Shown: positions 28,433 to 56,050 of the stretch, one piece after another
Position numbering within the stretch: position 1 is the stretch's first letter
Layout of the letters: each line of letters begins with the position of its first letter
Origin: Mesostigma viride
Lineage: Eukaryota > Streptophyta > Mesostigmatophyceae > Mesostigmatales > Mesostigmataceae
Direction: 5' to 3'
NCBI GenBank assembly: GCA_009746045.1
Contig: RPFO01000366.1
Location: 186,001 to 250,000 of the forward strand
DNA: 64,000 bases
Position numbers and translations under genes: made by a program
Notes under the pieces: model-generated
What the model was told of the DNA's origin: nothing
Databases searched by the model: none
The model's input: the letters and a program-made list of their open reading frames with translations, nothing else

Positions 28433-31400
28433 ATGGAGGACGCAACAACCAAGAAACGGTTTGCTGGTCTCCGGTCTCTCTTTGGGGGGAAGGATAAACA
28501 CCCTCCCGAGTTACCCTCCTCGCCCAGGAGGTATGGTATCCCATCAAATGTTGGCATTATCGCTACTCGTTCCTTCTTAGACGTGGCACGTATCCGTTGA
28601 TGCTTGCTGTCGATCACAGGAGGTAACACACCCCATCACAGTCTGGCGTTGCCTTGCGCCATGGTCACCAAGTGTTCCTTCTTGTTCATGCACTCGTACC
28701 GTCTCCTCTGGCACATGTCTCTGGTAATGTCATCAGCCAGCTAATGCTCTCATCGGACACACTTCATAATCATGTATGTGCATCTTGCCCAGCCCCTGAG
28801 CAACTTCTGTCACACTATACACATTTCCACCCAGCTCCATTCATTTCCATCATCCTGGGCCACTCAACAAACGTGGATAAGATGACAGCAGGCTCGAGCT
28901 ACCACGGTCCGGATTCTCCAGAATTCTGGCCTGCGCTGGTTGTCTCATGGACACAGTGGTCACTGCAGTATTTATGCCGTGCCTGCGCTGGTTGTCTCAT
29001 GGACACAGTGGTCACTGCAGTATTTAGGCCGTGCCTGCGCTGGTTGTCTCATGGACACAGTGGTCACTGCAGTATTTAGGCCGTGCCTGCGCTGGTTGTC
29101 TCATGGACACAGTGGTCACTGCAGTATTTAGGCCGTGCCTGCGCTGGTTGTCGCATGGACACAGTGGTCACTGCAGTATTTAGGCCGTGCCTGCGCTGGT
29201 TGTCTCATGGACACAGTGGTCGCTGCAGTATTTAGGCCGTGCCTGCGCTGGTTGTCTCATGGACACAGTGGTCACTATGAAAGTATTAAGGCTTGCGCTG
29301 GTTGTTTCATGGACAATATGCTTGTTTGCTATCCCCCTACTGCAACCAAATGTCTATTTTCCCCAGCCCCCTGAGCAACTTCTCGCCCAAGTACGTGGAT
29401 GTCTCCAAGGAAGAGTACGCGCAAGGGGTGGGGCTGGACCTGGGGCGCCTGCGACAGAAGGTAACGCGACATGGGGTGGTGCATGCTGACATGTCTGTGT
29501 TATTCCACCGTATAGAGCTAGCACGCATCTTGCAATTAATTTGATGTTTTGTGGTGATGCATGCAAAGCAAAGCAAGGCCAGAAATGGATTTGGTGAGCT
29601 ATGCTCATTTTATCTATGACTAACCTGCTGAGCGGAGAATGCAACGCCGTATAGCACAAAGAGAAAAAATAAGTTTCAGAAAAAAATATTTTTTGTGCTG
29701 GCACCTGTACCCCAGCCACCCAGGTAGGGGTTGGCTGGACAGGTGGTTTGCTATAAAAGGTGGGCTTCCATTCTAGGGAAGCAGGTTGTTTCTTTTGCCT
29801 CCTGCCCACCCACCCTGGCAACAGGGGTAGAGCAGGGGCACAGCTGCTGTGGGCTGGCCCTGCAAATTCACGTAGTGTGCTCACCCTAGCATACAGATGG
29901 CCTTGTTGCCATCTGGTAGACATGTCTGTGTTATTCCACCGTATAGAGCTAGCACACATATTGTAATAAATTTGATGTTTTGTGGTGATGCATGCAAAGC
30001 AAAGCAAGGCCAGAAATGGATCTGGTTTTTTCTCGGATCGTTAGTACATCGAACCCGCTTCATTAGTACGATGGCACCTCCCGAGAACAAATGACTTCGG
30101 GAAAGGCGGTCATGGCGACGTGAATTTATATTATAATACTGGACTGTATTGCCGAGTTTACGAGGCCGAAAACTGCAAGGGGTAGCTCGTTTGAAAGTGC
30201 AAAACTGGCTGATTCCCACTTTCGAGTACGTATTCCATGCTATGCAGGGCTGCCTGTTAAAATTATGATGCCTCGTTGACTTGGCCTGGAACTGGGCCGC
30301 AGGCTGCTGCAGCCACAAGTGATGCATTGGAGAAGTGAAAAATGATGAGTTGTCTGGTGGTGACTGAGAAAGGAACTGGGATGTGTTTGACCTAGTGGGA
30401 AATCAAGAAGCTTCTTACAGGTAACTAGTTACGGGAGGTATGCAAACAGCGTGGCATTCTGAGATGGTGTTATGACATATTAAGAGTGACGTTGGCAACG
30501 GTGATGTGCCGGGCGGCAGGGTCGCTGGAATAAGGTGGTGGAGTTGAAAGGCGAGACCCTCGCAAAGCCTAGGGTGGCGAAGATAATAAGTGAATGTAAT
30601 ATGTGCATATAATTAGTGAATGTAATTAGTGAACGTAATAAGTGATATCAATTATCATTAATTAATTATCAACATCACTCCGTTGGGAGTAGATCAATTA
30701 TCATAGTGAATGTAATTAGTGAACGTAATAAGTGATATCAATTATCACTACTAGAGTCATCTTAGAGCCGTTCCTGGGTGAGCTCTCACTGGCGTGAGGA
30801 CCTGTACCCGGACCTGTGTGATGGCGCCATGTCATCCCTGCATAGCACAGTGAGCAACGTCAAGCGCTCGCTCGGGTGGACGCGGTAGCTCGAGTAATAC
30901 GAGTGCTGCTACGGCTTCACAAAGCAGCCCCATCATCATATTGTGTGGTCATGTTGCGTGCCAATGTTGTGTGATCATGTCGTGTGGACGAGCCAGCTGG
31001 CTAGGGGTCGTTTTGCGAACCCACACTCTCTAAACACCCCCACACTGATTGCGCTGAACAGTGTAGCTGGCTAGGGGTCTCCACCCTGAAGCAAAACGAG
31101 CTTCCGATCGATCCTTTACTTCTGGCGTCTGTGCAAAGTGTGGGAACGGACAGGCTCCGGCCAGTGGCTTGGAGCTGTTTGCCTGCCTGACGTGAGCATT
31201 AACTCTGTCGTGGTCTTGGCACCCCATGCTGTGGTATTAATGAACCCTACGATGCTGTAATTGGTTATTGCATAACATCCCACGCCACACTTCTTCTTCA
31301 CACCCCAGCCACCTCAGGCGACCGACATACTGGGCCTTCCATGGTGTTAATGAAGATGGCATGTTCTTTGTCTCCCGCAACACCCCATGCCGTGGTCTTC

Positions 31401-56050: not shown

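Follow-up and report, generated by a model that had tools for sequence, protein, structure and literature searches.

Small tandem duplications arising at staggered breaks are a common class of short insertions in plants and mammals, and they are local, direct and tens of base pairs long. Fill-in by CST/Pol alpha is treated in a section of PMC8355091, whose references include Messer and Arndt 2007, Vaughn and Bennetzen 2014 and Schiml et al. 2016. In other cases the tandem duplication touches splice signals, as in vertebrate ATP2A1, in potato RdRp, where according to a passage of PMC4974935 the duplicated unit crosses an intron-exon border, and in the Drosophila cases of an excerpt of PMC2891723. 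Intronic minisatellites (VNTR) form head-to-tail arrays. Sections of the genome paper of the streptophyte alga Mesostigma viride give a mean intron length of 1142 bp, with repeats making up 30% of the intron space, and attribute the long introns to repetitive elements (PMC6947507).

We analysed a window of 64,000 nucleotides of M. viride nuclear DNA in which exon ends recur as imperfect copies, hereafter echoes, in the adjacent introns. Like the staggered-break duplications, the echoes are local and direct, but they form old, decayed series within introns and their donor units are longer (median about 100 bp). As in ATP2A1, RdRp and Drosophila, they involve tandem duplication touching splice signals, but the copies lie inside an existing intron, create no new intron and leave the protein unchanged. 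They share with VNTR the head-to-tail arrangement (e.g. 88 bp × 5.3 and 103 bp × 4.6), but coding sequence and a functional donor form part of the founding unit, and most of the series in the main gene are absent from the list of a tandem-repeat finder. Each element is already known, be it small tandem duplications, intronic minisatellites or duplication across a splice border. By title and start of abstract, we found no description in the open-licence literature of exon-edge echoes at such density, in particular of their density at donors and of the difference between donors and acceptors, which is weak evidence of absence.

The main gene of the window (28433..57806, plus strand) encodes a Kelch-repeat protein that matches Pfam Kelch families. 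It has 22 exons; the initial annotation had counted 21 in 28433..56050, a range that stops at exon 21. The spliced product equals the deposited protein Mv01247 at all 738 amino acids. This protein was identified by homology, using the spliced product of exons 1-14 as query (jgi/Mesvir1/18734/Mv01247, 100% identical), and it helped to position exons 15 and 22. Intron 10 begins with GC (40125-40126) and is a GC-AG intron. The neighbouring gene on the minus strand matches Mv01246 (99%) and has a Peptidase_S26 domain (mitochondrial inner-membrane-protease-like), and the exon model of the left-hand gene was predicted in this analysis.

The window also holds other repeats. Kilobase-long pyrimidine-rich arrays (CTTCC × 244, CTTTT, CCCCTTC) occupy 35104-36914 and 54372-55887 in Kelch introns 6 and 20, although the full-length protein of this gene has been deposited. 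A dispersed repeat has minus-strand copies at 9939-11009 and 59000-59800, in a frame of which a putative reverse-transcriptase-like YADD motif was seen by eye. Its segment 10029-10968 matches locus L018 at 91% and the part 10383-10968 matches L011 at 96%, and a different dispersed repeat lies at 12229-13476, matching L025 at 89%. A long near-perfect inverted repeat (hairpin) was seen by eye in intergenic DNA at 15290-15380. Positions 28929-29276 form a 52-bp × 6.7 array whose unit resembles, by eye, sequence near 24000, 32310 and 60450; a dispersed element seems to have had its end amplified here as a tandem array.

We compared the first and last 40 exon bases of each Kelch exon with every intron, using dinucleotide-shuffled targets to assess significance. 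The p-values, obtained by fitting Gumbel distributions to 16-100 shuffles in each test, are only rough; at a nominal p <.005, controls from other loci matched in 3-5/530 cases (donor) and 5-9/512 (acceptor). With these exon-only queries, 7/21 donors and 2/21 acceptors matched their own intron at p <.001. The initial annotation would have been refuted by exon-edge likeness no commoner in adjacent than in unrelated introns, but the likeness is concentrated in the adjacent ones: 9/42 edges matched, against 5/800 comparisons with non-adjacent Kelch introns (15/800 at p <.01). None of the 40 comparisons with wrong-side introns matched at p <.01. Chance and shared splice motifs, considered as causes, are ruled out by the exon-only queries and the non-adjacent controls. 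The exon-edge echoes are real.

Ten of the 14 echoes originally named pass the exon-only test at p <.01 (donors 3, 6, 8, 9, 11, 12, 13 and 20; acceptors 2 and 8). Of the others, the exon 3 acceptor is marginal (junction query p =.0054, exon-only p =.69), exon 14 has a weak signal (p =.016, with 3 exon bases), exon 7 is borderline (p =.02 at +192; the best alignment of this exon is an ATTT microsatellite) and exon 18 gives no match with the junction query. Junction queries reached p <.005 at 9 edges in 8 exons and p ≤.02 at 17 edges in 14 exons, and so the original figure of at least a dozen exons holds at the loose threshold only. Among the nine edges, the exon 17 acceptor is a doubtful candidate, as its re-fitted unit holds no exon bases. 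The other two multi-intron genes behave likewise, as had been proposed, with echoes (p <.005) at 5/11 edges tested. In the alignments, the copies are duplications of the adjacent exon border ranging from near-identical to faint (98% down to about 70% identity), many run across the junction and several are serial. The regular step noted at the outset is clear behind exon 3 (+88, +178, +266, +356) and exon 20 (+103, +206, +309, +412), and exons 8 and 13 provide further series (table 1).

Table 1. Exon-edge echoes in the window, with positions counted from its first nucleotide and offsets in bp from the source.
Feature	Coordinates	Strand	Description
Exon 3 donor array	31763..32234	+	young; 88-bp unit × 5.3 (19 nt of exon end, the donor, 69 nt of intron); founding exon 31686-31781
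Exon 6 donor echo	34807..34837	+	offset about 99; exon-only p =.005
Exon 8 donor echoes	38544..38884	+	+102, +190, +402; in the +190 copy GA replaces GT
Exon 8 acceptor echoes	37904..38252	+	-416 and -300, 42-44 exon nt aligned; the acceptor also founds a younger 90-bp array (-181, -91) carrying 5 exon nt only
Exon 9 3'-part echo	39612..39647	+	offset 115; match ends 19 nt before the junction
Exon 11 donor echo	41083..41150	+	offset 110
Exon 12 donor echoes	42077..42794	+	+95, +591, +684, +759, all four found by alignment, +95 and +591 also by junction query; interrupted by a TGGC microsatellite
Exon 13 donor echoes	44688..44857	+	+106, +226/228; fainter copy near +344 further on
Exon 20 donor array	52643..53112	+	young; 103-bp unit × 4.6 (27 exon nt + 76 intron nt); founding exon 52552-52666
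Exon 2 acceptor echo	28776..28808	+	acceptor + first 16 exon nt; offset -574
Exon 3 acceptor echo (marginal)	31293..31335	+	offset about -371
Left-hand gene exon, echoes on both sides	2088..2178	+	acceptor -89/-90; donor +104 to +107
Left-hand gene, next exon	3995-4126		acceptor echo at -117, 8 exon nt only
Mv01246 second exon, echoes on both sides	26180..26404	-	acceptor offset 96-97; donor offset 112

The anatomy of the units was fitted for 32 donor units, each containing 10 or more exon bases, pooled from the window and from the other loci described below. Units measure 25-235 bp, with a median offset of 102 bp (quartiles about 85 and 132). The copies extend 10-55 nt into the exon (median 28); none of the 32 goes deeper than 55 nt, a limit that random placement does not explain. 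The junction is crossed by at least 6 nt in 29/32 units, a figure favoured by the 18 intron bases of the query; among 25 copies detected by exon bases alone, intron position 1 agrees in 88% and position 2 in 80%. The nearest donor offsets under exon-only detection are distributed as 3 below 85 bp, 17 at 88-116 bp and 13 at 128 bp or more. The 88-116 cluster belongs mostly to the window, which contributes 10 of the 17, against 7/23 of the offsets outside it. An early generalization that all exon-edge copies lie 86-117 bp away was dropped, because the other loci follow the pattern less closely (donor offsets 25-233 bp, 8/27 in 85-118). Exon length correlates with offset (Spearman.71, n = 12), in a sample where 3/12 unit fits had the query aligned to itself. 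One predicted donor of another locus (L032:6012, plus strand, exon score 38) precedes a series of six or more 48-bp copies, which contain the query's exon bases.

The initial annotation had proposed a link to intron gain by duplication of AGGT-containing exon segments. We found none: the Kelch copies lie within existing introns of 496-3266 bp, no intron gain was seen among them, and they usually carry the intron's own 5' sequence. Where their alignment continues, it runs into a copy of the intron start and not into the next exon.

Local copying is not confined to exon edges. Excluding arrays of period ≤20, 101/488 intron-internal 40-mers of the Kelch gene have a copy in the same intron at p <.001 and 0/488 have one in another intron. 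Among 1004 overlapping 40-mers of these introns, direct copies (163 + 183) outnumber inverted ones (20 + 19) by about 9:1 (346 vs 39). The copies are direct, head-to-tail and close to their source, which is what places them with local tandem duplications and minisatellites. Intergenic DNA has fewer (40 and 36 of 747). In the other loci, 307/2078 intron 48-mers, used as pseudo-junctions, have a downstream copy and 323/2078 an upstream copy at p <.005, of which 93 are downstream-only and 107 upstream-only. Since intron interiors are copied locally too, general local direct duplication is the background against which exon edges must be judged; GC content does not account for the echo rate. The claim that introns are built from exon borders stands in part. 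Each copy lengthens the intron, but edges as the main source are not supported, as interiors are echoed at similar rates (101/488 against 9/42 edges in Kelch, 307/2078 elsewhere).

The initial annotation had called for a repetition in other genes, for which we used 26 regions (257 kb) of the assembly, which comprises 2243 contigs and 439.9 Mb. Six of the regions are neighbours of the window on the same contig and account for 9 of the 27 donor echoes. Outside the window, all exons were predicted with a codon-usage and splice-site scorer. At a score ≥25, 15/18 of its calls were exact within the Kelch gene, on whose exons it was partly trained. As an independent check, 31/35 Cpn60_TCP1 exon cores were overlapped by a call (27/35 at a score ≥25), mostly within a few bases. 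Echoes recurred at 27/177 donors and at only 7/171 acceptors (Fisher exact test, p =.0005). A bootstrap over 25 loci places donors at 9.4-21.8% and acceptors at 1.1-7.8%, with a donor echo in 15/25 loci. At p <.005, these donors match their own intron in 22/176 cases and introns of other loci in 5/530. Copies are about twice as frequent in the Kelch window as in the other loci (donor 7/14, interior 35/120, acceptor 3/15), and the earlier impression of density came from this rich locus.

How large the donor excess appears depends on the control. Compared with all interior positions having a downstream copy, donors of the other loci show a small excess (28/176 vs 307/2078). However, in any array the exon is bound to be the first copy (donor) or the last (acceptor), and hence the one-sided rate is the closer control. 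Against downstream-only interior pseudo-junctions the donor excess is large (27/177 vs 57/1745). Acceptors outside the window show no enrichment over one-sided pseudo-junctions (7/171 vs 68/1745) and fall below the two-sided interior rate (7/171 vs 323/2078). In a matched test with equal target lengths (56 introns), donors exceed the one-sided interior (13/56 vs 23/441, p = 4e-5), while their excess over the two-sided interior is not clear (13/56 vs 61/441, p =.07). Acceptors in this test are neither significantly depleted relative to the two-sided interior (3/53 vs 55/448, p =.18) nor below the upstream-only interior (3/53 vs 26/448), and within the window their depletion is less clear (3/15 vs 30/120 interior). 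Donors are therefore at or above the general background and acceptors at or below it. The verdict of mere background with nothing special, which we considered, is too strong given the donor excess over one-sided controls.

Duplication has also been recent. Two loci, L033 (C887:341605-349664) and L035 (C1641:60944-67934), carry near-identical parts of a Cpn60_TCP1 gene, with 99 mismatches in 4923 aligned bases (about 2%) and about 3.1 kb of extra DNA in L035; they are either haplotypes or a recent partial duplication. The aligned blocks differ by 7 indels of at least 5 bp, of which 3 are tandem duplications of 43, 18 and 7 bp. Hence tandem duplication is recent in Mesostigma introns. None of the 7 indels touches an exon border, and the analysis met with no border-spanning duplication in progress. 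The proposal of an ongoing process is supported in that introns in general show recent tandem duplication, but no such recent event was seen at an exon border.

The observations are probably best explained by ongoing local tandem duplication at the DNA level that is filtered by splicing, being tolerated behind donors and mostly purged before acceptors, with copies that decay neutrally. Frequent duplication, with units from tens of bp to about 235 bp, would turn over the introns, and a unit that spans a splice junction by chance would bring an exon border into the intron. Behind a donor such a copy would be tolerated, because the original exon-proximal donor would still be used, being first in line. 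A copied acceptor upstream of the original would be met first or would upset the spacing of the branch point, and so copies before acceptors would mostly be purged. The copies would decay while selection fixes the exon; exon-derived pieces would therefore outlast the faded intron part, and the introns would seem built from exon edges. Repeated rounds at one edge would give a series with a regular step. We infer both this filter and the repair mechanism behind the duplications, for which the likeliest origin would be staggered breaks that are filled in, as happens in plants and mammals.

A filter and a conserved exon do not fully explain the donor excess. If the exon drifts at synonymous sites, simple arithmetic shows that exon copies stay recognisable about 1.7 times longer than pairs of neutral sequences. 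The conserved exon thus explains about 1.7-fold, and a two- to three-fold donor excess over the one-sided control is left over. A hot spot or a selection-locked anchor could cause this excess, the spacing near 100 bp and the 55-nt limit. Exon 3' ends would then be hot spots for tandem duplication of roughly 100 bp, or arrays anchored in the exon would be locked by selection, as their collapse would replace the exon end by a decayed copy; introns would grow chiefly from the donor end. That donor borders are the true source in this sense is on balance unlikely, but it accords with the excess over downstream-only interior in both comparisons above and with the outward echoes by position: 27/126 at the donor, against 5/137 at 40 nt inside the exon, 4/99 at +200 (14/99 when copies on either side are counted) and 9/119 at the acceptor. 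It also accords with the spacing of donor copies near 100 bp, given that interior events resembling first copies peak at 45-60 bp, with only 4/51 in 85-118. All three window arrays of period 86-115 derive from exon edges (the 90-bp array being assigned to the exon 8 acceptor by alignment), while none of those of period 20-82 includes an edge and the sole longer one (256 bp) is intergenic. The small excess over all interior positions in the matched and unmatched comparisons speaks against it, as do the acceptor borders, which lack a similar pattern outside the window, and the three tandem duplications of L033 and L035, which lie away from exon borders. Moreover, we know of no mechanism that would localise such breaks to donor borders. 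Hardly more likely, and tentative, is the broader picture of introns that grow from their 5' end, in which the donor border acts as a persistent source of duplications of about 100 bp, be it hot spot or anchor, and acceptors are shielded. Such growth would be conveyor-like, with young copies near the donor and old ones further in.

The exon-part mismatches fit neutral copies, as indicated by counts in which copies of one exon are not independent. By codon position the copies differ from their exons at 21/205, 28/203 and 42/211 sites; exon 6 and exon 12 +95 (self-matches) and exon 3 +444 (no exon bases) contribute nothing. Synonymous changes make up 36/91 (.40) of the exon-part mismatches. Random change predicts.21, and a neutral echo of an exon that drifts at synonymous sites is expected, by arithmetic, at.35. 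The copied GT is unchanged in 18/25 exon-only detections, against 19.5 expected at the neutral rate; an apparent excess of GT retention (45/50) had vanished once detection was limited to exon bases. These figures speak against the idea that selection maintains the echoes as exons for alternative or recursive splicing. This is very improbable, even if several copies have, by eye, an upstream AG and a downstream GT and exon-like pieces remain recognisable. Mv01247 contains no echo, in-frame stops, read by eye, interrupt the +106 copy of exon 13 (TAG) and the +190 copy of exon 8 (TGA), and coding constraint, which like an open frame would mark tandem alternative exons, was not found in the copies analysed. 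Mobile introner-like elements or shared splice-site motifs are a negligible prospect, and the adjacency controls refute them for most of the echoes: splice motifs are common to all introns and dispersed repeats do occur in these ones, but the signal comes from exon bases alone, and the near-identical copies in the introns of many genes that define introners were not found, matches elsewhere being rare (5/800 in non-adjacent introns at p <.001, 5/530 in other loci at p <.005).

With local duplication filtered by splicing as the preferred reading, the Mesostigma genome becomes a readable record of how introns grow through local duplication, since the fixed exon ends serve as rulers by which the copies can be dated. 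Every donor-proximal copy is a natural competitor donor, and the asymmetry between donors and acceptors would allow the tolerance of the splicing machinery to be tested directly across the genome.
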